Below, one piece after another: positions 5,678 to 50,141 of a stretch of DNA of 64,000 nucleotides. A program made the translations under genes and the position numbers. The notes beneath the pieces are model-generated. The model searched no databases and was not told the origin of the DNA. It was given only the letters and a program-made list of their open reading frames with translations. The first letter of the stretch is position 1. The number at the start of each line of letters is the position of its first letter. The DNA comes from Flavobacteriaceae bacterium (lineage in GTDB: Bacteria > Bacteroidota > Bacteroidia > Flavobacteriales > Flavobacteriaceae): the NCBI GenBank assembly GCA_013373635.1, contig JABXHN010000003.1, positions 186,001-250,000 of the forward strand, written 5' to 3'.

Positions 5678-7219
5678 ATGAATCAGCTAAATATCTTATG
5701 GGTCGATGATGAGATACATTTATTAAAACCTCATATACTTTTTTTAGAAGAAAAGGGATATTTAGTGAGTCAGTGTAACAGTGGTTATGAAGCTATAAAA
5801 CGTATTGAAAATGAGCATTTCAATATGGTACTTTTAGATGAAAATATGCCTGGAATGGATGGTCTCCAAACCCTTAGCCAAATCAAAGAACTGCAACCTA
5901 CTCTTAAAGTCATCATGATTACCAACAATCAAGAAGAACGCATCATGAACGACGCGTTGGGATCTAAAATTGATGATTACCTTTTAAAACCGGTGCATCC
6001 GAATCAAATACTACTAAGCCTTAAAAAGAATTTGGAATTACCCAAAATCATCAGTGAAAAGGCTACTATGGACTACCAAAAAGAATTTGGAGTACTCAGC
6101 AGTGAGATCGAAGCTGCCCAAAATCACAAAGATTGGGTGAACATCTATAAAAAATTGATGTTTTGGGAACAAACTCTCGAAGATGAAAAATCCGGAAGCC
6201 TCTCTGATATTCTCGAATCTCAGAAACTGACAGCAAATAAATACTTTGCCAAATACGTTGAGAAGAGCTATCCATTGTGGATGAAAGCTCAAGATGCCCC
6301 TGTTTTATCTCATCGACTCTACAAGGAGAAAATACGTCCACAACTGAACAAAAAGACCTTATTAATCATCATTGACAATCTTCGATTTGATCAGTGGAGA
6401 AAAATAGCACCCATTGTAGATCAGTATTATCAAATAGATCAAGAGGAAGCTTTTTACTCAATCCTTCCCACCGCTACTCATTACGCTAGAAATGCCATAT
6501 TCTCAGGATTAACACCTCTTGAAATGGAAAAACAGCATCCGAATTTGTGGAAAGAAGAACTGGATGAGGGAGGAAAGAACCTTGAAGAAGATGCTTTCTT
6601 TAAAGCTCAATTACAGCGATTGGACGATTCGATCATTTGGACTTATGACAAGATCAGCAATCAACGACAAGGACAGCGCTATTTGTCAAAAATTCATCAA
6701 CTCAAAGACAACGACCTCAATATTTTAGTCTACAATACCATCGACATCTTATCACATGCAAAAACTGAGATGAATGTCATCAAAGAATTAGCGACAGATG
6801 ATAAGGCCTATCGCTCCTTGACCAAGTCCTGGTTTGAAAATTCACCTCTTTTAGAAATCATCAAAAGAGCTGCAGATATGGATTTACAACTCATACTCAC
6901 TACCGATCACGGTACGATCAGAGTAAAGACTCCAACGATGATCAAAGCTTCAAGAGAAATCAATAGCAATTTTAGATACAAATTAGGATCGAACCTCAAG
7001 GCTTCCTCAAAAGATTCCATACGTATCGATGATCCGAAGAGTTTTGGTTTGAGTTCTGTAAGTCTTAGCTCAAACTACGTCTTTGCGATTGCTGATTCCT
7101 TTTTTGCCTACCCCAACAATTACAATCAATTCATCAATCACTACAAAGATTCCTACCAACACGGTGGAATTTCACTAGAAGAAATGATTTTGCCCTTTGT
7201 GGTTTTATACCCTAAATAA
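5678..7219 (+). CDS. porX: PorX-type response regulator with PglZ domain
   Basis: 513 residues, close to the length of Porphyromonas gingivalis PorX. Residues 3-120 form a receiver domain with acidic pair Asp10/Asp11, phosphoacceptor Asp54 (LLDENMPGMDG) and conserved Thr (MITNNQ) and Lys (LLKPVHP). A helical linker follows, then a PglZ domain of the alkaline-phosphatase fold (LLIIIDNLRFDQW, LPTATHYARNAIFSG, LTTDHGT, HGGISLEEMILPFV). PorX acts with kinase PorY and an ECF sigma factor to control the type IX secretion system, and its PglZ domain has been reported to cleave oligonucleotides. No porY lies nearby, as is usual for this orphan arrangement. Divergent from the HD-domain gene. Confidence 0.92.
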   Translation: MNQLNILWVDDEIHLLKPHILFLEEKGYLVSQCNSGYEAIKRIENEHFNMVLLDENMPGMDGLQTLSQIKELQPTLKVIMITNNQEERIMNDALGSKIDDYLLKPVHPNQILLSLKKNLELPKIISEKATMDYQKEFGVLSSEIEAAQNHKDWVNIYKKLMFWEQTLEDEKSGSLSDILESQKLTANKYFAKYVEKSYPLWMKAQDAPVLSHRLYKEKIRPQLNKKTLLIIIDNLRFDQWRKIAPIVDQYYQIDQEEAFYSILPTATHYARNAIFSGLTPLEMEKQHPNLWKEELDEGGKNLEEDAFFKAQLQRLDDSIIWTYDKISNQRQGQRYLSKIHQLKDNDLNILVYNTIDILSHAKTEMNVIKELATDDKAYRSLTKSWFENSPLLEIIKRAADMDLQLILTTDHGTIRVKTPTMIKASREINSNFRYKLGSNLKASSKDSIRIDDPKSFGLSSVSLSSNYVFAIADSFFAYPNNYNQFINHYKDSYQHGGISLEEMILPFVVLYPK

Positions 7220-7677: not shown

Positions 7678-8870
7678 TGATGGAATCACCCTTCAATCCA
7701 ACAGAACTAATGCCAAAGGAAGAGCGATTAGCGGTCGCAATCAAAAAAGGCAGCTTAATTATTGGTCTTCCTAAGGAACGTGAAATGGAAGAAAAAAGGG
7801 TGTGCCTCACCCCTGATGCAGTGGCAGCTCTAGTTGCTAATGATCACAAAGTCATTGTAGAACAAGGTGCAGGTGAACACGCGCATTTTTCAGACAGTGA
7901 ATATCAAAAGGCTGGTGCCTCCATCGAAAGTGATCCAAAAAAGGTTTTGGAATGCCCTTTAATTCTCAAAGTAGCTCCTGTCAACGATCAAGAAATAGAG
8001 CTCTTAAAACCTCATAGCACAGTGATCTCTACCTTGAATTTAAAATCAAAGGATCTCTATTATATCAACAAACTCCAAGAAAAAAAGATTACTGCTATCG
8101 CTTTAGAAGAACTCACAGAACACGATGGAAGCTTTCCTTTTGTTAGTTCTTTAAGTGAAATTTCAGGCTTGTCTGCTATTTATATAGCGGCAGAATTGAT
8201 GAGTAAATCGAATGAAGGAAAAGGACAACTCTTTGGAAATATTTCAGGGGTGCCTCCTACAGAAATTGTCATATTTGGATCTGGAACAGCAGCAATATGG
8301 GCCGCAAAAACAGCTTTAAACCTGGGAGCTTCAGTTAAAATATTTGATAATTCTACTTCAAATCTAAGAAAGATACAATCGGAATTAAAACACCCCATAT
8401 ACACTTCTACCCTACAACCAAAGAATATGCTCAAAGCTCTAAGGCGTTGTGATGTGGCTGTTGGAGCTATTGAATGTCATCACAGAACTCCCGTGGTGGT
8501 TTCCGAAGATATGGTCTCCTATATGAAAAGAGGGTCTGTGATCATCGATATCAGTATCGATAGAGGTGGTTGTTTTGAAACCTCTCAACTCACATCACAT
8601 CAAAAACCTACCTTTAAGAAATTTGATGTCATCCATTACTGTGTTCCCAATATTCCCTCTAGATATCCAAAAACAGCATCGGTATCGATGAGTAATATCT
8701 GTACTCCCATCTTATTAGACCTTGCTGAAAAGGGTGGTATTGACAATGCATTGCGATTGGATCAAGGCCTTCAAAACGGAGTCTACCTTTATCAGGGAGT
8801 ACTTACCAACAGTTCCATTGCAGATCAACTGGGATTAACACATACCAATATTAACTTTTTAATTTTTTAA
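7677..8870 (+). CDS. Alanine dehydrogenase-like protein
   Basis: 397 residues with an AlaDH/PNT N-terminal domain (IGLPKEREMEEKRVCLTPDAV) and a NAD-binding Rossmann domain (IFGSGTAAIWAAKTALNLGASV). Alanine dehydrogenase interconverts alanine with pyruvate and ammonia. Two departures are visible: the histidine expected in the family LHLA segment is replaced (STLNLKSKD), and the nucleotide loop reads GSGTAA. An N-terminal extension of about 25 residues precedes the domain. Flavobacterial versions are usually annotated alanine dehydrogenase, but activity should not be assumed. It overlaps tsaE by one base and is followed after one base by a small membrane-protein gene. Confidence 0.8.
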   Translation: MMESPFNPTELMPKEERLAVAIKKGSLIIGLPKEREMEEKRVCLTPDAVAALVANDHKVIVEQGAGEHAHFSDSEYQKAGASIESDPKKVLECPLILKVAPVNDQEIELLKPHSTVISTLNLKSKDLYYINKLQEKKITAIALEELTEHDGSFPFVSSLSEISGLSAIYIAAELMSKSNEGKGQLFGNISGVPPTEIVIFGSGTAAIWAAKTALNLGASVKIFDNSTSNLRKIQSELKHPIYTSTLQPKNMLKALRRCDVAVGAIECHHRTPVVVSEDMVSYMKRGSVIIDISIDRGGCFETSQLTSHQKPTFKKFDVIHYCVPNIPSRYPKTASVSMSNICTPILLDLAEKGGIDNALRLDQGLQNGVYLYQGVLTNSSIADQLGLTHTNINFLIF

Positions 8871-8871
8871 T

Positions 8872-9255
8872 ATGCCATTTCTCAAGCGATTGGGCTTTTA
8901 TTTAGCAGGTTTATCAATAGGATTGATCTTTTTAGCTTTTTTTCTAAAAAAGAAATCTGATGAAACCGGTGTCAGCTTTTGTTATTTACCCAATTGTAGG
9001 GTTTTAAAAGACCTTCGATCAAAACCACATCATTACGCTTCAAATCTCTCAGAGCGTATTCAAAACACAGAATTAGATACTACAGGTATCTCGCAGGTAT
9101 TTCTCGATGGTGAAATTAACTTCAAGAAGAGTGAATCTAGAAGAGAACCTTGTGGGTACTATATACTCGAAGGAATCTTAAATGAACGAGAAGTTGAAAT
9201 TAGCCTCAGCTCTTGTGAAGATCAGATTACTGTAGAAGAAATTATTTTACAATAA
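8872..9255 (+). CDS. Small membrane-anchored protein of unknown function (DUF4258-like?)
   Basis: 127 residues. Residues 8-25 form one hydrophobic helix followed by KKK, so an N-in anchor with the rest outside the cytoplasm, or an uncleaved signal, is likely. The soluble part contains CYLPNCRVLKDLRS and two more cysteines (EPCGYYILEG, SLSSCEDQ). I recall similar proteins beside alanine dehydrogenase in flavobacteria carrying a DUF4258 label, but cannot verify this here. It starts one base after the dehydrogenase-like gene, so cotranscription is likely. Its end overlaps that of the convergent proline dehydrogenase by 9 bases. Confidence 0.75.
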   Translation: MPFLKRLGFYLAGLSIGLIFLAFFLKKKSDETGVSFCYLPNCRVLKDLRSKPHHYASNLSERIQNTELDTTGISQVFLDGEINFKKSESRREPCGYYILEGILNEREVEISLSSCEDQITVEEIILQ

Positions 9256-10425
9256 TTTTCTGCGATCGCGTTCCTTTTTAAGCAAGCTAAGTTCTCTGGA
9301 TGTCTGACCAGCTACAGAAGTGTTTTCCTCTGCTCTTCTCATCAGATATGGCATCACATCCTTTACAGGTCCAAATGGCAGGTATTTGGAAACATTATAC
9401 CCTTCTTTTGAAAGATTAAAACTGATGTGATCACTCATTCCATAGAGTTGACCAAACCAAATTCTGGGATCATTCTTTGCTAAAGCGTTCTGATCGATCA
9501 GATCCATCAACAGATAATTCGAATCCTCATTATGCGTCCCTGCAAAGATTAAAAACGAATCGATATGATCCATCATAAAACGCAGAATCGTATTGTAATT
9601 TTCATCAGTAGCTGCCTTAGATTCACAAATAGGACTCTTATAACCCAATTTTTGAGCTCTTTCGTTTTCCTTTTCCATATAGGCTCCACGAACCAATTTA
9701 ATACCTATTTTAAATCCTTTAGCCTTGGCTCTTTCTACCAATCCTTTGAGATATTCCAATCGATCCCATCGATAAGCTTGAATGGTATTAATGACAATCA
9801 CTTCTTCTTTGTTGTATTTTTCCATCAATTCTTCGAGAAGATCATCTGCAGCATCTTGCATCCAACTCTCTTCAGCATCAACTAGTACAGGAATGGTGTT
9901 TTGAGATGCCTTTTGACAAATCGCTTCAATGCGATTTCCAATGCGGTTCCAAGATTCCAAGTCTTTGTCTGTCGATAATTTTCCTTCAGATTTCTTTTGA
10001 TAGATCTCAATAGAGCCCATAGCAGTTGGTTTAAACACTGCAAAAGGAAGTGACTCTCTCTGAGTTAAATAAGTGAATATATTGAGGATGCGATCCCTGA
10101 TCTGGTCAAAGGAATACTCTTCTACTTTTCCTTCCACTGAATAGTCAAAAATAGAGTGTACATTTTTTGAAAAAAGTTTATCGACCGTTTCAATTGAATC
10201 ATCCTCTGAAACACCCGCACAAAAATGATCAAAAACGGTTGCTCTAATCAAGCCTTCAACAGGTAAATGTGCCTTGATTGCAAAATTTGTTACAGCGGTC
10301 CCTACTTTGACAAGTGGTTCATTTGCTATAAGTTTAAAAAGAAAATACGCACGCTCTAATTCAGTGTCTGATTTTAAAGCAAATGCCGTTGCAGTATCCT
10401 CAAAAATTCGCCTCATTATTGTCAA
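9247..10425 (-). CDS. Proline dehydrogenase
   Basis: FAD enzyme that oxidises proline to pyrroline-5-carboxylate, the first step of proline catabolism, passing electrons to the respiratory chain. 392 residues, a stand-alone enzyme and not the large PutA fusion. Family signatures are GIKLVRGAYMEKENERA, FAGTHNEDSN, WFGQLYGMSDHISF and the C-terminal YLPFGPVKDVMPYLMRRAEEN with the proline-contacting arginines. The first 130 residues are the helical cap usual in Bacteroidota versions. It stands alone on the minus strand, convergent with the preceding operon; no P5C dehydrogenase is in the window. Confidence 0.93.
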   Translation of the reverse strand: MTIMRRIFEDTATAFALKSDTELERAYFLFKLIANEPLVKVGTAVTNFAIKAHLPVEGLIRATVFDHFCAGVSEDDSIETVDKLFSKNVHSIFDYSVEGKVEEYSFDQIRDRILNIFTYLTQRESLPFAVFKPTAMGSIEIYQKKSEGKLSTDKDLESWNRIGNRIEAICQKASQNTIPVLVDAEESWMQDAADDLLEELMEKYNKEEVIVINTIQAYRWDRLEYLKGLVERAKAKGFKIGIKLVRGAYMEKENERAQKLGYKSPICESKAATDENYNTILRFMMDHIDSFLIFAGTHNEDSNYLLMDLIDQNALAKNDPRIWFGQLYGMSDHISFNLSKEGYNVSKYLPFGPVKDVMPYLMRRAEENTSVAGQTSRELSLLKKERDRRKLL

Positions 10426-10508
10426 ATTAATAATTACACAAATATAGCTAAGGGAATTTTATTATTAATGCAAAAATAGTCTTTATTTTGCGTTGAATTT
10501 AAGTACTT

Positions 10509-11573
10509 ATGAAATCGATCAAAACAGCAAGCTCTTCCGTACTTTTTGGTGCAGAATCGTATCGTAAATTAGCTGAAACACTTACAGATAAAAACTACTC
10601 CTTAATCATTGTTTTTGTCGATGAGAATACACATGAAAATTGCCTTCCCTATTTTATGGGAAATCTAGAAGGTGAATTTCCAATTGAAATCGTTGAAATA
10701 GAATCAGGTGAAATCAATAAAACACTTGAGACTTGTAGTGGTGTTTGGGAAGCGCTTTCAGAATTAGGAGTCGATCGAAAAAGTGCGATGATCAACCTCG
10801 GTGGTGGTGTGATCACTGATATGGGAGGATTTATAGCCTCCTGTTTTAAAAGAGGTATTGATTTCTACAATATACCCACTACCCTTCTTTCAATGGTCGA
10901 CGCCTCTGTCGGTGGTAAAACGGGAGTCGATTTAGGGATGCTTAAAAATCAAATAGGAGTCATTGTAGAACCAGAATTTGTGATTGTAGATCAAGCGTAT
11001 TTAGCGACGCTTGACAAAAGACAACTCAAAAGCGGATTTGCAGAAATGCTCAAACACGGTCTGATCTCCGATAAAGACTACTGGAAACAGTTAAAAGACA
11101 GTTTTAATTCAACTAGTATTGATGAGGCTATTTCAACCTCTGTTCAGATCAAAGCAGATGTAGTACAAAAAGACCCTAGAGAAAACTCACTTCGCAAAAT
11201 TTTAAATTTTGGTCACACCCTAGGTCATGCGATTGAATCTTATTTCTTATCGCTTGGGGAAGATAAAATGTTACTCCACGGAGAAGCGATCGCCATCGGT
11301 ATGATTATGGAAGCCTATTTATCGACAATTTACACTGGTCTAAGTAGTGATGAACTCGATGAAATCAGCAGCACACTACTCAACCACTACGGCAAAGTAA
11401 ACATTTCAAATCAAGACAAAAAAGAGGCTATAGCGCTTTTAAAATTTGACAAGAAGAATTCCCATGGTCAAATCAAATATGTACTCTTAGAACGCATTGG
11501 AAAGGCTGTATTCGATATACAGATCAAAGACAACGACCTCAACGACGCATTTGAATACTACAATTCACTTTAA
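10509..11573 (+). CDS. aroB: 3-Dehydroquinate synthase
   Basis: Second enzyme of the shikimate pathway; converts DAHP to 3-dehydroquinate using NAD and a divalent metal. 354 residues, usual length. Motifs: NLGGGVITDMGGFIAS, IPTTLLSMVDASVGGKTGVD, AEMLKHGLI, and the metal-binding histidines in NFGHTLGHAIE and LHGEAIAIGM. It is a single-gene unit, divergent from proline dehydrogenase and closed by a strong two-way terminator shared with the convergent Lrp gene. Confidence 0.97.
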   Translation: MKSIKTASSSVLFGAESYRKLAETLTDKNYSLIIVFVDENTHENCLPYFMGNLEGEFPIEIVEIESGEINKTLETCSGVWEALSELGVDRKSAMINLGGGVITDMGGFIASCFKRGIDFYNIPTTLLSMVDASVGGKTGVDLGMLKNQIGVIVEPEFVIVDQAYLATLDKRQLKSGFAEMLKHGLISDKDYWKQLKDSFNSTSIDEAISTSVQIKADVVQKDPRENSLRKILNFGHTLGHAIESYFLSLGEDKMLLHGEAIAIGMIMEAYLSTIYTGLSSDELDEISSTLLNHYGKVNISNQDKKEAIALLKFDKKNSHGQIKYVLLERIGKAVFDIQIKDNDLNDAFEYYNSL

Positions 11574-11591
11574 AAACTAAAAACTCAGACA

Positions 11592-11627
11592 TAAAAAAAG
11601 CACCTCATTGAGGTGCTTTTGTTTTTA
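11592..11627 (+). terminator. Two-way terminator between aroB and the Lrp gene
   Basis: Perfect stem AAAAGCACCTC / GAGGTGCTTTT (11596-11606 and 11610-11620) with a 3-base loop, flanked by A and T tracts. It serves the convergent genes on both strands. Confidence 0.9.
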
Positions 11628-11641
11628 TAAGAAGATGTTTC

Positions 11642-12124
11642 TTAATCTAGTTCAGAAAAGATCGTATGCATTAAACGCTTTTTATCGTTAATGCTCTCTT
11701 CTAATGAAATCATCGTTTCTGTTCTGCTGATTCCATCGATGTCATCTATTTTAAAAATGATGTTCTTCGCATGAGTGGTGTCCTTTGCTCTAATCTTACA
11801 GAAAATATTGAACTTACCTGTCGTAATGTGAGCTACTGTAACATTTGGAATTTGATTTAAACGCTCAATAACAAACTTTGTCTGATGTGTTTTCTCTAAA
11901 AAGACTCCAACATAAGCGATAAAAGAATAACCCAATTTAATATAATCAAGGGTTAAAGAAGAACCTTTGATAATTCCAGCTTCTTCCATTTTTTTAACAC
12001 GAACGTGAACTGTTCCTGCTGAAATCAATAATTTCTTAGCAATATCTGTAAAAGGAGTTCTGGTATTGTCGATCAACATATCTAAGATCTGGTGATCTAT
12101 TTCATCTAATTTTACTGTAGTCAT
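11642..12124 (-). CDS. Lrp/AsnC family transcriptional regulator
   Basis: 160 residues. Residues 5-65 form the winged helix-turn-helix (DEIDHQILDMLIDNTRTPFTDIAKKLLISAGTVHVRVKKM style), and residues 75-150 the RAM effector-binding domain (FVIERLNQIPNVTVAHITTGKFNIFCKI). Such proteins form octamers and sense amino acids. The target here is unknown; aroB and an M14 peptidase are neighbours but no clear amino-acid operon is. It has a good promoter of its own and a terminator, so it is a single-gene unit. Confidence 0.92.
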   Translation of the reverse strand: MTTVKLDEIDHQILDMLIDNTRTPFTDIAKKLLISAGTVHVRVKKMEEAGIIKGSSLTLDYIKLGYSFIAYVGVFLEKTHQTKFVIERLNQIPNVTVAHITTGKFNIFCKIRAKDTTHAKNIIFKIDDIDGISRTETMISLEESINDKKRLMHTIFSELD

Positions 12125-22390: not shown

Positions 22391-23455
22391 ATGAAAAAAC
22401 ACAACTTTAGTGCAGGACCCTGTATATTACCTCAAGAGGTTATCAAAAAAGCTTCTGACGCTGTACTAAACTTTAACAACTTAAACCTCTCTTTAATTGA
22501 AATCTCTCACCGTTCAAAAGATTTCGTAGAGGTTATGGATAAGGCGCATCACTTAGCCTTATCTCTTTTAGGATTAGAAAACAAAGGCTATAAAGCACTG
22601 TTCTTACAAGGAGGAGCTAGCCTTGAATTTTTAATGGTAGCTTATAACCTACTCGAGCGAAAAGCTGGATACGTTGATACAGGAACATGGAGTTCTAAAG
22701 CCATTAAAGAAGCTAAAAACTTTGGAGCGGTTCAAGTCCTTGCTAGTTCAAAAGACAATGGATACAAAAACATTCCAACCTCTTATGAAATTCCAACGGA
22801 TTTAGATTATTTACATTTAACTTCGAACAATACCATTTACGGAACACAATATCAAAGTTTCCCAGAAACTTCAGTTCCTCTAGTATGTGATATGAGTTCT
22901 GACATTTTTTCAAGAGTCTTGGACTTTGAGAAATTTGATCTCATCTATGCTGGAGCACAAAAGAATATGGGACCTGCGGGTACGACTTTGGTTATTGTAA
23001 AAGAAGATCTTTTAGGTAAGGTTTCAAGAGCGATACCAGCTATGTTGGATTACCGTGTACATATCGATAAAGAAAGTATGTTTAATACCCCTTCTGTTTT
23101 TGCCGTTTACACTTCTATGTTGACTTTGGACTGGCTTAAAGATCTTGGAGGAATTGCTGCGATTGAAAAAATTAACGATCAAAAAGCAGCCCTTCTCTAT
23201 GGTGAATTAGATAAGAATCCACTTTTTGTTCCCTATGCGGACAAAGACTTTAGATCGAAAATGAACGTTACCTTTACCTTGGCAGATGAGCAATTAGGCG
23301 ATCGATTTAACGCCATGTGGAAAGAAGCTGGAATCAATGGATTAAATGGACACCGCTCTGTAGGAGGCTATAGAGCTTCTATTTACAACGCCCTAAGTCT
23401 TGAAAGTGTTCAAGTACTAGTCGATGTCATGCGCGAATTGGAAAAACAAGCATAA
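22391..23455 (+). CDS. serC: Phosphoserine aminotransferase
   Basis: PLP enzyme that makes O-phosphoserine from 3-phosphohydroxypyruvate and glutamate, in serine synthesis, and acts also in the DXP-dependent vitamin B6 route. 354 residues, normal length. Starts with MKKHNFSAGPCILP; the PLP lysine is Lys191 in IYAGAQKNMGPAG; NGLNGHRSVGGYRASIYNA is the typical C-terminal signature. serA follows after a one-base gap, so the two enzymes are made together. Confidence 0.97.
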   Translation: MKKHNFSAGPCILPQEVIKKASDAVLNFNNLNLSLIEISHRSKDFVEVMDKAHHLALSLLGLENKGYKALFLQGGASLEFLMVAYNLLERKAGYVDTGTWSSKAIKEAKNFGAVQVLASSKDNGYKNIPTSYEIPTDLDYLHLTSNNTIYGTQYQSFPETSVPLVCDMSSDIFSRVLDFEKFDLIYAGAQKNMGPAGTTLVIVKEDLLGKVSRAIPAMLDYRVHIDKESMFNTPSVFAVYTSMLTLDWLKDLGGIAAIEKINDQKAALLYGELDKNPLFVPYADKDFRSKMNVTFTLADEQLGDRFNAMWKEAGINGLNGHRSVGGYRASIYNALSLESVQVLVDVMRELEKQA

Positions 23456-23456
23456 A

Positions 23457-24416
23457 ATGAATATTTTAATCAATGATGGATTGTCACAAGATGCGATAGC
23501 GCATCTTGAAAACAATCACTTTAAAGTATTTCAAACCTCTGTAGCTCAAAGTCAATTACTCAAATATCTCAACGAGCAAGAGATTCATATTTTAGTGGTA
23601 CGCTCAGCTACCAAAGTGGATTCTACCATCATTAAAGAAGCAAAATACCTCAAGGCAGTAGCTCGTGCTGGAGTTGGATTAGACAATATTGATTTAGACG
23701 CTGCTCAAACGCATCAAATAAAAGTAATCAATACACCTACTGCCTCTGCAAAGGCAGTAGCCGAATTGACTATAGCACATTTACTCACAGGAGTGAGACA
23801 CTTACAAGATTCGAATCGCTCCATGCCTTTAGAAGGTGAATCTCGTTTTAAAGAGTTAAAAAAGAGCTATTCCTCTGCTAAAGAATTAGAAGGAAAAACA
23901 CTGGGTATTATTGGATTTGGTGTCATAGGACAAGAGACTGCTAAAAAAGCTATCGGACTGGGTATGCGTGTCTTGTATCACGATATTGCTCAAACGAAAG
24001 TGACTCTTAAATTAGAATTTTACGACGGTCAAGAAATTGAATTTAACCTGATAAACGTCTCTAAAAAACACCTTTTAGAGCAGTCGGATTATATATCATT
24101 ACACATCCCTTCTCAAGAAGAATATCTTTTAGGTGAGAAGGAATTTAATATGATGAAAAAAGGAGCTGGACTGATCAACACCGCAAGAGGAAATGCGGTA
24201 GATGAAATTGCGCTCATCAATGCTTTGAACACCGATCAATTAGCCTTTGCTGGTCTTGATGTATTTGAATCAGAACCCAATCCAGAAGTAGCATTGTTGA
24301 TGCATCCACAAATATCGCTAAGTCCTCATATTGGTGGAAGCACTAAAGAGGCTCAAACGAGAATTGGTATGGACTTGGCAGAACAATTAATCAAAACTTT
24401 TAAATCACAGCACTGA
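23457..24416 (+). CDS. serA: D-3-phosphoglycerate dehydrogenase (short, no ACT domain)
   Basis: NAD-dependent enzyme of the D-2-hydroxyacid dehydrogenase family, 319 residues from the ATG at 23457, directly after the serC stop; an in-frame upstream ATG at 23424 lies inside serC and is unlikely. Motifs: RAGVGLDNIDLDAAQ, NAD loop GIIGFGVIGQETAKKA, NTARGNAVDE and the catalytic histidine region LSPHIGGSTKEAQ. The regulatory ACT domain of long SerA types is absent. Location next to serC supports phosphoglycerate as substrate over other hydroxyacids. Confidence 0.93.
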   Translation: MNILINDGLSQDAIAHLENNHFKVFQTSVAQSQLLKYLNEQEIHILVVRSATKVDSTIIKEAKYLKAVARAGVGLDNIDLDAAQTHQIKVINTPTASAKAVAELTIAHLLTGVRHLQDSNRSMPLEGESRFKELKKSYSSAKELEGKTLGIIGFGVIGQETAKKAIGLGMRVLYHDIAQTKVTLKLEFYDGQEIEFNLINVSKKHLLEQSDYISLHIPSQEEYLLGEKEFNMMKKGAGLINTARGNAVDEIALINALNTDQLAFAGLDVFESEPNPEVALLMHPQISLSPHIGGSTKEAQTRIGMDLAEQLIKTFKSQH

Positions 24417-43530: not shown

Positions 43531-44448
43531 ATGTTAGAACGAATAAAATATTTTTCAAGAATTCAAACAACACCCAATCAATACTATTATTGCTTTATTT
43601 TTTTGATTGGATTATTCTTAACTTCATTTAATTCTAGAGCACAGTACACCGATATCATCAATTCCAATACTCCTGGTAGAACTATGGGAGCCTATACTGT
43701 TGGAGAGGCTGTTTATCAATTGGAATCTTTATACAGTTCAGATCACCAAACTCATATCTATCCTGATAGTGATTATCATATCAATGATATCGAATCTACT
43801 TTTAGATTTGGATTTAAAGAGCGTGTGGAACTCATCTACGAATTTGGGCATCGCTCAAAAATAGATCACACTCAAAATATCGACACAAAAGGCATATTTA
43901 AGAATCGTTTCGGATTTAAAGTTTTGATCTACGACCCTCATCAGTTTGCTGAACCTGATTATTACTCTTGGAAGAACAATCACCGATTTGTTCTAAAGAA
44001 CTTAATACCAGTTGTTTCGATCTATGCAGGACTTAACGTACACAAAAAAGAAAGTTTATTCAATAGATTTGATCCCTATGATCCAACAAGTAAAACCTAT
44101 ACGACGATATACGACAAAGAAATATTGATATTACAACAACATTTAAGTCCTTATTGGGTGTTGGTTACAAACTTTTCAATGGATAAACCTGCTTCTAATC
44201 GAGAGTATTCAATTACCAGTACCTTGGTTCACAGTTTTAGAAAATACTACAAATTAAGTCTCTTTCTCGAAGGACAAAGTATCATCAATGATTATTATGC
44301 TGATGAAATAATCAGGACTGGAGGAGCTTATTTAATTAACAAAAATATTCAAGTTGATGCCTTTTTAGGAACTAACTTTAAAGAAACTCCCTCGAGACTT
44401 TTCTTTGGTTTTGGTGCATCGATCAGAGTGGATAATCACTTCAAATAA
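43531..44448 (+). CDS. Predicted outer-membrane beta-barrel protein, function unknown
   Basis: 305 residues. An unusually long basic N-region (about 18 residues) precedes the hydrophobic signal core (YYYCFIFLIGLFLTSFNS) with cleavage about SRAQ-YT. The mature part is rich in aromatic residues and alternating beta-strand patterns (FRFGFKERVELIYEFGHRSK, KLSLFLEGQSIIND) ending in a strand RLFFGFGASIRVDNHFK. This fits the MetA-like transporter barrels often annotated as transporter in flavobacteria. Its stop overlaps the following GNAT gene start by one base. Confidence 0.75.
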   Translation: MLERIKYFSRIQTTPNQYYYCFIFLIGLFLTSFNSRAQYTDIINSNTPGRTMGAYTVGEAVYQLESLYSSDHQTHIYPDSDYHINDIESTFRFGFKERVELIYEFGHRSKIDHTQNIDTKGIFKNRFGFKVLIYDPHQFAEPDYYSWKNNHRFVLKNLIPVVSIYAGLNVHKKESLFNRFDPYDPTSKTYTTIYDKEILILQQHLSPYWVLVTNFSMDKPASNREYSITSTLVHSFRKYYKLSLFLEGQSIINDYYADEIIRTGGAYLINKNIQVDAFLGTNFKETPSRLFFGFGASIRVDNHFK

Positions 44449-45569
44449 TGATACATTTAAAAGAAGTTCAAAACGACAAAGAGCTCAAGAAATTTGTCAC
44501 CTTTCCATTTGAGTTATACAAAGATTCTCCCTATTGGGTTCCTCCTTTGATTAAAGAGGAAATGGAACAATTTCAAAAGGACAAAAACCCTGTTTTTAAA
44601 ACAGCTCAAGCTCAATATTTTCTAGCTTATAGAGATGGGAAAATCGTTGGAAGAATTGCAGCAATCATCAATTGGATTGAGATTAATGAGCAAAAGGTAT
44701 CTAAGATGCGTTTTGGCTGGTTTGACTTTATCGATGATTACGAAGTATCAAAGATTCTCTTAGACAAAGTCTATGAGATCGGCAAAGCCAATGGACTCTC
44801 TTATATGGAAGGACCTGTAGGGTTCTCAAACCTTGACAAGGTTGGTGTGCTCGTCGAAGGATTTGATTCCATTGGAACGATGATTACTTGGTACAATCAC
44901 CCCTATTATGTAGAGCACTATAAAAAGTACGGTTTTACTGTTGAAAAAGAATTTGAAGAGAATCGCTTTCCATTTAGCAATATCGATAACACAAAATTTG
45001 AAAAGCTCGATAAAATAATTGGACACCGTTTAGGTTTACACGTAAAAAACTTTCATTCAACAAAAGAATTACTCCCCTATGTTGATCAAATGTTTGATCT
45101 CTTTAATGAATCCTATGCTGTTCTATCTTCCTTTGTGCCAATCACTCAGGTTCAAAAGGATTATTTAACTAAAAAGTTTATCAGTTTTATCAACCCTGAG
45201 TATATTAAATTTGTATTTACCAATGAAGGTAAAATGATTTGTTTTGCAATCACGATGCCCTCTTTTTCTAGGGCACTTCAGAAAGCTCAAGGAAAACTCT
45301 TTCCATTTGGGTTCTATCATCTCTTAAAAGCAAAGAAAAACAATCCTGACGCTATATTTTACCTAATTGGAGTACACCCAAAATATCAGAATAAAGGGGT
45401 TACTGCCATGCTGTTTAGTCACTTTTACAAGTCTTTTGAAAAGATTGGAGTTGTCAATTGTGTCAGAACTCCTGAACTTGTCAATAATCTGTCAATAAAG
45501 AAGTTATGGACTGAATTTAAACCAGAAGTTTACAAAAAAAGAAACACCTATAAGTTTGATATCAACTAA
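44448..45569 (+). CDS. GNAT-like acyltransferase-fold protein
   Basis: 373 residues, cytoplasmic. The region FLAYRDGKIVGRIAAIINWIEIN and the C-terminal IGVHPKYQNKGVTAMLFSHFYKSFEK match the beta-strand and acetyl-CoA-binding loop of GNAT proteins, apparently in two tandem halves. Family members in Bacteroidota are often mislabelled GTP cyclohydrolase; a small-molecule or aminoacyl transfer is more likely, but unproved. Coupled to the outer-membrane gene by TAATG and ended by a two-way terminator. Confidence 0.82.
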   Translation: MIHLKEVQNDKELKKFVTFPFELYKDSPYWVPPLIKEEMEQFQKDKNPVFKTAQAQYFLAYRDGKIVGRIAAIINWIEINEQKVSKMRFGWFDFIDDYEVSKILLDKVYEIGKANGLSYMEGPVGFSNLDKVGVLVEGFDSIGTMITWYNHPYYVEHYKKYGFTVEKEFEENRFPFSNIDNTKFEKLDKIIGHRLGLHVKNFHSTKELLPYVDQMFDLFNESYAVLSSFVPITQVQKDYLTKKFISFINPEYIKFVFTNEGKMICFAITMPSFSRALQKAQGKLFPFGFYHLLKAKKNNPDAIFYLIGVHPKYQNKGVTAMLFSHFYKSFEKIGVVNCVRTPELVNNLSIKKLWTEFKPEVYKKRNTYKFDIN

Positions 45570-45592
45570 TCGGTGAAATAAATTTAAAACAA

Positions 45593-45622
45593 AAAAATAG
45601 CCCTGATAACAGGGCTATTTTT
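45593..45622 (+). terminator. Two-way terminator between the GNAT and alpha-oxoamine synthase genes
   Basis: Perfect 13-base arms (45593-45605, 45610-45622; core ATAGCCCTG / CAGGGCTAT) with a 4-base loop, A tract before and T tract after. Confidence 0.9.
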
Positions 45623-45643
45623 ATATATCTATAATCGATTTGA

Positions 45644-46903
45644 TTATTCTCCCATTGCCTTAGAAACAGCAGCAGATAATCGCTTATAAGTACCGTTTTC
45701 TAAACGTTCTCTGATACTAGAGAATGCTTTTAGGGTGATTTCGATATCCTCCATTGTGTGAGTTGCAGTTGGAATTAAACGCAATAAGATTAATCCCTTT
45801 GGAATTACAGGATACACTACAATAGAACAGAAAATTCCATAATTTTCTCTAAGGTCTTTAACAAGAGCCATCGCCTCTGGAATACTTCCTTTGAGGTATA
45901 CTGGAGTTACACAAGAAGTTGTGGTTCCAATATCAAATCCAGCATCTTTTAAACCATTTTGAAGGGCGTTTACATTCTCCCAAAGTTTAGCTTTTAGCTC
46001 TGGCTTAGTTTTTAATAATTCCAAACGCTTTAAACCTCCTTTTACATAAATCATCGGTAGTGATTTAGCAAACATTTGAGATCTTAGGTTGTATTTTAAG
46101 TAGTCGATGATTTCTTGATCTGCTGCTAAGAACGCTCCAATACCAGCCATTGATTTAGCAAAAGTTGCAAAGTAAACGTCAATATCGTCTTGAACTCCTT
46201 GTTCCTCACCTGCTCCAGCTCCTGTTTTACCAAGTGTACCAAAACCGTGAGCATCATCAACTAATAATCTAAAGTTGAACTTTTTCTTAAGCTCAACAAT
46301 TTCTTTTAGTTTACCTTGCTCACCTCTCATTCCAAACACCCCTTCAGAGATAACTAAAATACCTCCTCCAGTTTGTTCAGCCATCTTTGTAGCGCGCTCT
46401 AAGTTCTTTTCTAAAGACTCAACATCGTTGTGTTTAAACGTGAATCGTTTCCCCATGTGTAAACGAACACCGTCAATAATACAAGCGTGAGCATCTACAT
46501 CGTAAACAATAATATCGTCTTTTGAAACTAAGGCATCAATAGCAGACATTATACCTTGATATCCAAAATTTAAAAGGTAAGCCGCTTCCTTGTTTACAAA
46601 TGCAGCAAGTTCTTGTTGTAGTTGTTCGTGAAAGTCGGTATGGCCACTCATCATTCTGGCTCCCATTGGATAGGCTGCACCATGTGCAGCAGCTGCATCA
46701 GCATCTGCTTTGATCACTTCTGGAAGATTTGCCATACCTAAATAATCGTTGATACTCCAAGTAATTACTTCTTTACCTTGAAATTTCATTCGATTTGAAA
46801 TATGACCTTCTAATTTAGGAAATACAAAATAGCCTTCAGCCTGAGAAGCCCATTTACCTAATGGACCCTTATTTTCCCTAATTCTATCAAATATATCTCT
46901 CAT
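45644..46903 (-). CDS. Alpha-oxoamine synthase, probable cysteate fatty-acyltransferase or serine palmitoyltransferase
   Basis: 419 residues, PLP-dependent. Motifs: LVDDAHGFGTLG with Asp217 and His219, PLP lysine Lys250 in ATFAKSMAGIG. The family condenses an amino acid with an acyl-CoA or acyl-ACP. In Bacteroidota the main members are serine palmitoyltransferase (sphingolipids) and cysteate fatty-acyltransferase (capnine, a sulfonolipid tied to gliding in Flavobacterium johnsoniae). Annotation pipelines often call it glycine C-acetyltransferase; a tdh gene is not present here. The cysteine-synthase-like gene next to it favours the cysteate route, by inference. Own -7 box; a terminator isolates it from the upstream gene. 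Confidence 0.85.
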   Translation of the reverse strand: MRDIFDRIRENKGPLGKWASQAEGYFVFPKLEGHISNRMKFQGKEVITWSINDYLGMANLPEVIKADADAAAAHGAAYPMGARMMSGHTDFHEQLQQELAAFVNKEAAYLLNFGYQGIMSAIDALVSKDDIIVYDVDAHACIIDGVRLHMGKRFTFKHNDVESLEKNLERATKMAEQTGGGILVISEGVFGMRGEQGKLKEIVELKKKFNFRLLVDDAHGFGTLGKTGAGAGEEQGVQDDIDVYFATFAKSMAGIGAFLAADQEIIDYLKYNLRSQMFAKSLPMIYVKGGLKRLELLKTKPELKAKLWENVNALQNGLKDAGFDIGTTTSCVTPVYLKGSIPEAMALVKDLRENYGIFCSIVVYPVIPKGLILLRLIPTATHTMEDIEITLKAFSSIRERLENGTYKRLSAAVSKAMGE

Positions 46904-46925
46904 AGACTTTGATTGGTTTTAGGTG

Positions 46926-46933
46926 CAAAAGTA
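46926..46933 (-). promoter_or_regulatory. -7 box of the alpha-oxoamine synthase gene
   Basis: TACTTTTG on the minus strand, 23 bases before the ATG; no TTG at 19 bases upstream. Confidence 0.45.
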
Positions 46934-46970
46934 ACTATAAATTTATTAAGAATTAAATATTAGGTGGATA

Positions 46971-46998
46971 AAAAAAACGACCCCAAAGAGGTCGTTTT
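46971..46998 (-). terminator. Terminator of the cysteine-synthase-like gene
   Basis: Arms AAAACGACC (46974-46982) and GGTCGTTTT (46990-46998) with a 7-base loop; a run of seven T follows on the minus strand. Confidence 0.88.
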
Positions 46999-47021
46999 GA
47001 CTATTCTTATGTGCGTTAATA

Positions 47022-48050
47022 TTAACGCAATACTTTTTCTTTTTTCTTAGCTATTTCCATAAATCCTTGAGCACTCATCCACTCGTCTGAATAAATTTTA
47101 GACATATAACGTGAACCGTGATCTGGGAAAATAACAACTACCTTTGAATTTTCATCAAAAACACCTTCATCGTTGAGTTGTTTTACAGCTTGAAGCGCAG
47201 CCCCTGAAGTGTATCCTACAAAAATCCCCTCTGATTTTGAGATCGCTCTAGCCATATGAGCACTTTCACCGTCTTTTACTTTTACAAAACGGTCGATCAC
47301 TTTAAAATCGGTTGCAGTAGGAATTAGGTTTTTACCCAATCCTTCTATTCGATACGGATAAATCTCATTAGGATCAATCTCTCCTGTTTCATGATATTTT
47401 TTAAGAATAGAACCATAAGCATCTACTCCTATTATTTGAATGTTAGGATTTTGTGATTTCAAATACTGAGCTGTACCTGAGATCGTTCCTCCTGTTCCAC
47501 TACAAGCAACCAAATGAGTAATTTCACCAGCCATCTGTTCCCAAATTTCAGGTCCAGTAGATTTAAAGTGAGCTTCAGTATTTAATTCGTTAAAATATTG
47601 ATTGATATAGATCGAACCAGGGTTTTCCTGGTGAATTCGCTTTGCAACTTCATAATAGGATCTTGGATCATCTGCAGCTACATGTGCTGGACAAACGTGA
47701 ACTTCAGCTCCCATAGAACGAAGCATATCAATTTTGTCAGGTGAAGATTTAGAGCTCACAGCCAAAATACACTTGTAACCTTTAATAGCACTTACCATTG
47801 CGACTGAAAAACCAGTATTACCAGAAGTAGTTTCAACAATAGTATCTCCTTCCTTTAGAATTCCTTTTTCTTCAGCAGTTTCTATGATGTTAAGAGCTAT
47901 TCTATCTTTAGCAGAATGTCCTGGATTAAAGGCTTCTACTTTAGCGTAGAATTCACCCTTAAAAGAGGCTGTTGATTTGTTAAGTTTTACAAGAGGAGTA
48001 TTACCAATAAGATCGATAATGTTTTCGTGTGCTTGAATTTTGTTTGACAT
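47022..48050 (-). CDS. PLP-dependent cysteine-synthase/CBS-like enzyme
   Basis: 342 residues from the ATG at 48050. Fold type II beta-replacing enzyme: PLP lysine Lys48 in [13 protein letters not shown], substrate loop [14 protein letters not shown], phosphate cup [16 protein letters not shown]. It is closer in look to the catalytic core of cystathionine beta-synthase than to CysK (PGHSAKDR not PGGSVKDR). Possible reactions are cysteine or cystathionine formation, or exchange with sulfite to give cysteate. The neighbour downstream is an alpha-oxoamine synthase that could use cysteate. Candidate -7 box TAATTTTG at 48075-48082. Confidence 0.86.
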
Positions 48051-48074
48051 AGGGGTCGTCTTTGTAATTCGATA

Positions 48075-48082
48075 CAAAATTA
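48075..48082 (-). promoter_or_regulatory. -7 box of the cysteine-synthase-like gene
   Basis: TAATTTTG on the minus strand, about 24 bases before the ATG at 48050; the region where TTG is expected reads GCT. Confidence 0.4.
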
Positions 48083-48098
48083 AGTAATTTTTAATAAA

Positions 48099-50141
48099 CT
48101 AAGCTTTATTTGCAAGATTGATTATGAAGGAATACTCCTGTGCTACTTCTTTAAGTGACTCAAAGCGACCTGAAGCCCCACCATGACCTGCGTCCATATT
48201 TATTGAAAAGTACAATTGATTCGAATCTGTTTTTAAATCTCTGAGTTTTGCAACCCACTTTGCAGGTTCCCAGTATTGTACTTGAGAATCGTGATATCCG
48301 GTGATGATGAGTGTATTTGGATATTCCTGTGCACGTACCTGATCATATGGAGAATACGATAGCATATAATCAAAAAACTCCTTTTGATTAGGATTTCCCC
48401 ATTCGTCATACTCCCCTGTTGTCAGTGGTATTGAATCGTCTAACATGGTGGTCACCACATCGACAAAGGGAACGTTCGCTACAATCCCTTTATAGAGTTT
48501 TGGTGCCATATTCATCACTGCTCCCATCAACAATCCACCTGCAGATCCTCCGTAGGCAAACAATCCTTCTTCGCTCGTATAGTTTTGAGCTATCAAATGC
48601 TTTGAACAAGCTATAAAATCAGTAAAAGTATTCATCTTTTGAAGAAGCTTGCCCGTTTCATACCACTCTCTTCCCATATATTCAGAGCCTCTTATATGGG
48701 CTATTGCATAGATAAAACCTCGATCCAATAAACTCAATCTCAATGATGAAAAAGAAGGATCGATTGTATGCCCATAAGAACCGTATCCATACTGAAACAA
48801 TGGACTACTTCCATCTAATGGTGTGTCTTTATGATACACTAGTGATATTGGAACTTGAACCCCATCTTCAGCTGTGGCCCATATACGCTCTTGTATATAG
48901 TTAGTGGCCTCAAATGTTCCACCCAGTACTTCGACTTGTTTTAACAAGGTCTTTTCCTTGGTTTCCATATGAAAATTATACACCGAATTCGGTTCAATCA
49001 AACTAGTGTACCCATAGCGCAATTCAAGAGAATCAAATTCAGGATTGGATCCGATATAAGCCGTATAAGTTTCGTTGTCAAATGGAATTTCATAAGAGAT
49101 TTCATTATCCCAACTAACTATTTTGATACGACTTAGACCGTTTTCTCTGGTAGCCAGTACATAGTATTTTTTAAAACTTGTAAAATCTTCAATTAAGGAT
49201 TTAGAATCGTGAGCGATAAAATCTTCCCAGTTTTCTACAGCGGTATGATCTATTGGAGTTCGCATCACCTTAAAATTCGTAGCTTCATCCTTGTTTGTGA
49301 GGATGTAAAAATGATCTTCAAAATGCGATATGTCATATTCTAATCCCCTTTGTCTTTGGGTGAATAATTCAAATTCACCTAGAGGCTGATCAGCATTTAA
49401 AATTCGGTATTCAGAAGTTAAGGTACTTGATGAACCGATAACAATAAACTTACCTGATCTAGATTTTGAAACAAAAACACTAAAGGTATCATCTTCTTCG
49501 AGATACATCAATTGATCCTTTTCACCACCTAATTGATGGCGATAAATCGCAATAGATCTCAAAGTTTGTTCGTCTTTTTGAGAATAGAATAAGGTCTTAT
49601 TATCATTAGCCCAACTAGCTGAACCAGAAGTATTGACAATTTTGTCATCTAAAATTTGACCACTTACCAAATCTTTCACATACAGAGTATACTGTCTTCT
49701 AGAGACCGTATCCACACTGTAAACGGCTAATTTATTATCAGGACTAACCGAAAAAGAACCCAAATGAAAGTATGAAAATCCTTCAGCCATTTGATTGCAA
49801 TCAAACAACAACTCTTCTGGAGCTTCAAGAGTTTCTTTTCTTCTGGTATAAATTGGATATTCTTTACCCTTTTCGAATTTAGTGATATACCAATAGCCAT
49901 TCTTTTTAAATGGAACTGATTCATCATCCTCTTTGATACGAGATTTCATCTCCTCAAAAAGCGTTTCTTGAAATGCTTCAGTATCCTTAGTCTCTTGCTT
50001 ATAATAGTTGTTTTCAGCCTCTAAATAATCCAAGACTTCTTTTGAATCACGATTGTTCATCCAGTAATAGGGATCCAAACGATCCACTGAATGATTTGAT
50101 AAAACAGTATCGATTTTCTTTGCTATTGGTGCTTTTGTCAT
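48099..50141 (-). CDS. Oligopeptidase B-type S9 peptidase
   Basis: 680 residues, no signal peptide. The N-terminal 400 residues form a seven-blade beta-propeller (e.g. FHLGSFSVSPDNKLAVYSVD); the C-terminal part is an alpha/beta hydrolase with Ser in YGGSAGGLLMG, Asp in TGYHDSQVQYWEP and His in NMDAGHGGASGR. HIRGSEYMGREWYETGKL is typical of protease II, which cleaves short peptides after basic residues in the cytoplasm. It follows threonine aldolase after 37 bases that contain a TACATTTG box (50161-50168). Confidence 0.94.
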   Translation of the reverse strand: MTKAPIAKKIDTVLSNHSVDRLDPYYWMNNRDSKEVLDYLEAENNYYKQETKDTEAFQETLFEEMKSRIKEDDESVPFKKNGYWYITKFEKGKEYPIYTRRKETLEAPEELLFDCNQMAEGFSYFHLGSFSVSPDNKLAVYSVDTVSRRQYTLYVKDLVSGQILDDKIVNTSGSASWANDNKTLFYSQKDEQTLRSIAIYRHQLGGEKDQLMYLEEDDTFSVFVSKSRSGKFIVIGSSSTLTSEYRILNADQPLGEFELFTQRQRGLEYDISHFEDHFYILTNKDEATNFKVMRTPIDHTAVENWEDFIAHDSKSLIEDFTSFKKYYVLATRENGLSRIKIVSWDNEISYEIPFDNETYTAYIGSNPEFDSLELRYGYTSLIEPNSVYNFHMETKEKTLLKQVEVLGGTFEATNYIQERIWATAEDGVQVPISLVYHKDTPLDGSSPLFQYGYGSYGHTIDPSFSSLRLSLLDRGFIYAIAHIRGSEYMGREWYETGKLLQKMNTFTDFIACSKHLIAQNYTSEEGLFAYGGSAGGLLMGAVMNMAPKLYKGIVANVPFVDVVTTMLDDSIPLTTGEYDEWGNPNQKEFFDYMLSYSPYDQVRAQEYPNTLIITGYHDSQVQYWEPAKWVAKLRDLKTDSNQLYFSINMDAGHGGASGRFESLKEVAQEYSFIINLANKA

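Follow-up and report, generated by a model that had tools for sequence, protein, structure and literature searches.

The locus considered here raises two questions: whether a pair of neighboring genes in a member of the Flavobacteriaceae specifies the first steps of sulfonolipid synthesis, and whether a third gene, convergent with the pair, supplies a later step. The stretch of DNA that was analyzed, hereafter the window, is 64,000 nucleotides long (G000:C34:186001-250000) and comes from a genome of 2.53 Mb in 97 contigs. In the excerpts of PMC10191378 on which we draw, CapA makes cysteate from phosphoserine, CapB joins cysteate with acyl-ACP to give 3-ketocapnine, CapC reduces this product, and N-acylation comes next; the same excerpts tie sulfonolipids to gliding and to signaling toward choanoflagellates and mammalian cells. 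PMC11211663 reports several reductases, whose genes do not form a cluster with those for the first two steps. At the window locus we observed the identity of the genes, their family membership, their diagnostic residues, their order, and the layout of promoters and terminators. Judged from sequence, the following two genes very probably encode CapA and CapB, the enzymes with which capnine (sulfonolipid) synthesis begins:

45644..46903, minus strand: capB, probable cysteate fatty-acyltransferase (CFAT) of the SulA type, 419 amino acids, with PLP lysine K250 and SulA-type lysine K280; assigned from solved relatives, the marker residue, and a tree.
47022..48050, minus strand: capA, probable cysteate synthase, 342 amino acids, PLP-dependent, PALP fold; 644 bits on NF053679.1 (cut-off, 600).

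Both reading frames stand at the positions given in the first-pass annotation. The length of CapA is counted from an ATG; the open reading frame reaches a TTG at 48077. Taken by itself, the pair is a known pathway in a further organism.

The first-pass annotation had proposed an alpha-oxoamine synthase of the cysteate class beside a CBS-like PLP enzyme that could make cysteate, and it had suggested a comparison by phylogeny and active-site residues. Family models identified the two products as an alpha-oxoamine synthase (45644-46903) and a PALP-fold enzyme (47022-48050), and the more specific evidence bore out both proposals. The putative cysteate maker passed the curated cut-off of the NCBI equivalog model for cysteate synthase CapA. 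The closest solved relative of CapB was 28eh, deposited as a cysteate-C-fatty acyltransferase, which matched over the full length at 717.6 bits; the SulA structure 7u7h scored 575 bits, compared to 247 bits for the best serine palmitoyltransferase (SPT) structure. CapB retains the residues for PLP binding and catalysis. PMC9304779 proposes that Lys281 of SulA separates cysteate enzymes from SPT, where alanine stands. The marker position in CapB is K280, and it is occupied by lysine in all 42 CFATs of a phylum-wide sample (window included), by alanine in all 11 SPTs, and by asparagine in the window genome's own alpha-oxoamine paralogue, a glycine C-acetyltransferase (Kbl). In a quick tree of 62 rows, which gave long-branch warnings and had neither 28eh nor 7u7h among its rows, CapB fell among the CFATs and apart from SPT (SH-aLRT support of 98 for the CFAT side, which takes in five plasmid-borne relatives, and of 89 for SPT). 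The same tree separated CapB from the genome's own glycine C-acetyltransferase.

We infer substrates, chemistry, lipid product, and any role in gliding from studied relatives. By analogy, CapA would convert O-phosphoserine and sulfite to L-cysteate by a PLP-dependent replacement. CapB would then hold cysteate as an external aldimine on PLP, which is bound through K250, condense it with a fatty acyl thioester with loss of CO2, and release 3-ketocapnine; in the studied SulA, according to the excerpted literature, the acyl donor is acyl-ACP. A short-chain dehydrogenase encoded elsewhere would reduce 3-ketocapnine to capnine, and capnine would then be N-acylated to give the sulfonolipid. The window genome encodes six short-chain dehydrogenases (E ≤ 1e-10). 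One of them (L260, at C34:281231, outside the window) had 3-ketodihydrosphingosine reductase (KdsR) as its best model, with 255 bits against a cut-off of 400, and no reductase of the window genome passed that curated cut-off. Elsewhere in the window, a serC gene and a serA-like gene (22391-24416) would supply phosphoserine to CapA; the serA-like gene scored 265 bits on the phosphoglycerate dehydrogenase model, whose cut-off is 454.

Conservation of the pair depended on phylogenetic distance. The nearest named CFATs, with up to 90% identity, were from Zeaxanthinibacter, Robiginitalea, a Cellulophaga metagenome-assembled genome, and others, which would put the organism in the Flavobacteriaceae. 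Among the 80 named loci of highest similarity, 79 had capA immediately 5' of capB in the same orientation, with gaps ranging from -4 to 306 bp. In the wider phylum sample of 42 CFAT loci, that of the window among them, 8 had CapA inside the fetched flanks; for the Flavobacteriaceae of that set the count was 5 of 11. The pairing is thus nearly constant in the closest relatives and often split beyond them. CFAT itself was present in 146 of 149 Flavobacteriaceae genomes, sampled at one per genus (E ≤ 1e-150), and in 42 of the 118 genomes of the phylum sample. The CapA cut-off was passed in 11 of those 118, all of them from the family to which the window belongs.

The gap between capA and capB, at 118 bp, contains a hairpin, and promoter-like motifs precede both genes:

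46926..46933, minus strand: TAnnTTTG promoter-like motif before capB, present in 65 of 79 homologous gaps.
46974..46998, minus strand: terminator-like hairpin between capA and capB; such a site occurs in 46 of 79 homologous gaps.
48075..48082, minus strand: TAnnTTTG promoter-like motif before capA, present in 70 of 77 homologous gaps.

The motif, which we take to be the Bacteroidota -7 element, stands 22 bases upstream of the CapB start. After shuffling, a mean of 10 and at most 23 of the capB gaps in close relatives contained it, as did a mean of 5.4 and at most 13 of the capA gaps, although base shuffles leave the shared ancestry of the gaps uncontrolled. In 47 of the 65 motif-bearing capB gaps, it lies 16 to 32 bases before the start codon. 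Terminator-like sites numbered 5 in the interval 45000-48600, compared to a shuffle mean of 2.0 (standard deviation, 1.2), whereas generic sigma-70 matches showed no excess over shuffles there (11 versus 11.2) and were uninformative. Since the hairpin and the promoter motifs are conserved in close relatives, the earlier description of the pair as having separate promoters and an intervening terminator, and so as a functional neighborhood rather than a simple operon, is supported at the window locus. Separate transcription of capA and capB is likewise supported, as a prediction from these signals; among 79 close relatives, 4 have an operon-like arrangement in which capA and capB touch or overlap.

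The second question concerns the gene on the other side of capB:

44448..45569, plus strand: tandem-GNAT protein of the bCerS/YghO family, 373 amino acids, candidate capnine N-acyltransferase.
45593..45622, minus strand: terminator-like hairpin in the space where capB and the GNAT gene converge, from the scan for terminator-like sites.

The GNAT and capB genes converge at a distance of 74 bp. We found no gene named for the capnine N-acyltransferase step in the open-license PMC literature, and we consider it an even bet that this protein and the members of a diverged clade within its family carry out that fourth step of sulfonolipid synthesis. The protein itself gave weak matches to GNAT families, and its sequence found nothing convincing among the sequences of solved structures (best E, 0.021). 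Its predicted model (mean pLDDT, 88.4; pTM, 0.86) resembled tandem GNAT structures (7q3a; Z, 22.5; rmsd, 3.4; 303 residues aligned), and N-myristoyltransferases came lower (1iyl_B; Z, 14.9; rmsd, 5.5; 295 aligned). Such likeness of fold in a predicted model is no proof of function. YghO is among the homologues of the protein, as is a Roseomonas protein (26% identity over the full length; E, 2e-32). The gene for the latter is directly beside those for two LptF/LptG permeases and near those for a fatty acyl-AMP ligase, an epimerase/dehydratase, and an aminotransferase-class enzyme. PMC11324152 describes such an arrangement for the sphingolipid cluster of Caulobacter, which includes cerS (CC_1154); the Roseomonas protein is counted as a bCerS by cluster layout alone, and the window GNAT is likened to bCerS through that protein. 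In no fewer than six families of the phylum, a gene of the GNAT family adjoins that for SPT. A tree of 68 GNAT family members placed the window protein in a clade of 30 (support, 100/100), distinct from most of the members that adjoin SPT and from a diverged third clade of 22 (100/100).

Adjacency to capB was common but was not peculiar to the GNAT gene. Among the 80 named loci, it lay within 400 bp of capB in 51 and further off in 8, was not seen in 19, and was cut off in 2. However, at the 61 loci with full flanks, GNAT (49 loci) was retained no more often than two other genes of the block, a Phenol_MetA_deg-like gene (50) and YfhO (49), and adjacency is weakened as evidence because the surrounding block is equally conserved. 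Moreover, Gramella, Mesonia, Gillisia, Salegentibacter, and four further genera (L270-L273) lack the GNAT gene in a block that is otherwise intact. These gaps beside intact capA-capB genes, at L194, L204, L215, and L225 as well as at L270-L273, are natural absences that constitute ready-made test species.

Such findings favor the strongest competing explanation, namely, that the convergent GNAT is unrelated to sulfonolipids, performs some other acyl transfer, and is kept beside capB by block synteny. We hold this explanation tentatively, at a little under an even chance, and the distribution of the family across genomes bears on both sides of it. In the 118-genome phylum sample (thresholds of 1e-100 for CFAT and at least 450 bits for SPT), a family member was present in 107 of 111 genomes with CFAT or SPT and in 3 of the 7 genomes that had neither enzyme; one of those 3 was a fragment (Fisher P of 3e-4, uncorrected for ancestry). 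The 4 that lacked a member all belonged to one family. Among the 149 Flavobacteriaceae genera, the family was found in 137 of 146 with CFAT and in 1 of 3 without (Fisher P, 0.014); the single GNAT-bearing, CFAT-negative genome was 66% complete. The other two CFAT-negative genomes, both more than 90% complete (G119 and G133), lacked CapA (threshold, 1e-100), CFAT, and GNAT and yet had kept YfhO, which lies further along the same block, and this argues against retention by synteny. The diverged clade occupied 22 places in 19 genomes, each above 470 bits on its own profile with the next best sequence at 308, and in the phylum sample it was seen only in CFAT-positive genomes; the profile was built from the same sequences and therefore tests specificity rather than recall. 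It also speaks against an unrelated acyltransferase that this bCerS-type GNAT occurs in a genome in which the search turned up no SPT. On the SPT model, the ten remaining Flavobacteriaceae in the phylum sample reached only 337 to 350 bits, near the 327 bits obtained by the glycine C-acetyltransferase of the window genome.

Other genomes fit the synteny explanation better. No family member was found in 9 of the 146 CFAT-bearing Flavobacteriaceae genera, 7 of them at least 99% complete, or in 3 of the 42 CFAT-bearing genomes of the phylum sample, and GNAT was absent genome-wide from Psychroflexus (G053). The window clade also occurred in CFAT-negative genomes whose second family member adjoins SPT, and in G033 a window-clade GNAT gene was itself 38 bp from SPT. 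A homologue with 34% identity was present on a Bacillota record, with no lipid genes beside it. Because of the block synteny, the CFAT-bearing genomes without GNAT, and the relatives without CFAT, we rate the N-acyltransferase assignment at one chance in two.

Two clusters in other genomes bear on the later steps. In G233, another member of the Flavobacteriaceae, four genes on the same strand (L263, G233:C1:47000-65000, positions 7686-11920) encode a GNAT of the diverged clade, then a short-chain dehydrogenase, then a CapA-like enzyme, and last a CFAT; the genes are separated by 1, 29, and 44 bp and look like a complete sulfonolipid operon. The CapA-like enzyme scored 373 bits, below the cut-off of 600; the CFAT has the marker lysine, and the genome is without a GNAT of the window type. 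This grouping of a related-clade GNAT with the dehydrogenase, CapA-like, and CFAT genes counts against an acyltransferase unconnected with sulfonolipids. In G064, a genome that lacks this GNAT family, the gene for a short-chain dehydrogenase shares 4 bp with that for CFAT (L084, G064:C11, positions 8217-10279), and the dehydrogenase is a candidate 3-ketocapnine reductase. By context, and each in one genome, these clusters support the reductase and N-acyltransferase assignments. The five remaining Flavobacteriaceae that have a GNAT of the diverged clade showed no CFAT in the fetched stretch (L265-L269).

If the N-acyltransferase assignment is right, sulfonolipids and sphingolipids would have one N-acyltransferase family in common, as they have their condensing-enzyme family in common, and the capA-capB lineages without GNAT (Gramella, Mesonia, Salegentibacter, and Gillisia at the locus; Psychroflexus genome-wide) should hold free capnine or a replacement enzyme. 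The GNAT is a definite and readily testable candidate for the enzyme that N-acylates these lipids. The first-pass annotation had also taken PorX in the window as a hint that gliding matters to this organism. PorX is indeed present (5678-7219; 724 bits on NF052313, cut-off of 300), but it says little about gliding because by its NCBIfam name it is a regulator of type 9 secretion.

Relatives of CFAT were also found on plasmids. In Aureibacter, Bernardetia, Spirosoma, and Tunicatimonas, no annotated gene for a CapA-like enzyme, GNAT, or dehydrogenase lay directly beside the plasmid CFAT relative; the Tunicatimonas stretch stops just past it, and in the Aureibacter stretch a short-chain dehydrogenase gene begins at the edge, 6 kb away. 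The enzymes of Spirosoma (L276, 6001-7200) and Tunicatimonas (L278, 5995-7191) have arginine in place of the marker lysine. Plasmid pLlyPCM2298_1 of Legionella lytica (L277, 5989-10860) encodes a CFAT-like alpha-oxoamine synthase that has the marker lysine and is 40% identical to the CFAT of G233. Next to it are a gene that joins a fatty acyl-AMP ligase to a phosphosulfolactate synthase domain (277 bits; cut-off, 280) and one resembling 2-phosphosulfolactate phosphatase (112 bits; cut-off, 175). Possibly, this plasmid specifies sulfonolipid synthesis outside the Bacteroidota by another cysteate route. A scan of viral contigs with the CFAT of G233 found no relative.

Among known systems, bacterial SPT (NF047600; 3a2b and 8guh) shares its fold, PLP chemistry, and catalytic residues with CapB but has alanine at the position of the marker lysine and occupies a separate branch of the tree. 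That CapB is instead an SPT or a glycine C-acetyltransferase, and its neighbor an ordinary cysteine or cystathionine synthase, is highly improbable: SPT, Kbl, and BioF do head the NCBIfam models of CapB, because no CFAT model is among its matches and the fold is common to all of these, but CapB was under the curated cut-off in all 11 models matched, ALAS included (292 bits versus 640 for SPT model NF047600; 286 versus 460 and 247 versus 493 for Kbl models NF005394 and TIGR01822), CapA was likewise below the cut-offs for cystathionine beta-synthase (TIGR01137; 390 versus 510) and CysK/cysteine synthase (TIGR01139; 277 versus 351), and a clear, separate Kbl is encoded elsewhere in the genome (694 bits; cut-off, 493). 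The SPT, Kbl, and cysteine synthase readings were dropped on these model scores, together with the solved relatives, the marker lysine, and the tree.

With SulA of Alistipes finegoldii (7u7h; PMC9304779, in part) and the CFAT 28eh, CapB has in common a full-length alignment, the PLP site, and the marker lysine; Alistipes and Odoribacter, according to the excerpts of PMC10191378, have another type of cysteate synthase, unlike the CapA of the window. Compared with the CapA/CapB/CapC pathway, as far as it is set out in the portions of PMC10191378 and PMC11211663 cited here, the same two activities would be expected of the window pair, which differs in having no CapC-type reductase adjoining. Finally, the GNAT may resemble bCerS/CerS (Caulobacter CC_1154), to judge by its full-length homology to the Roseomonas protein encoded in a similarly arranged cluster; the difference is one of partner, in that the window GNAT adjoins capB and not SPT.
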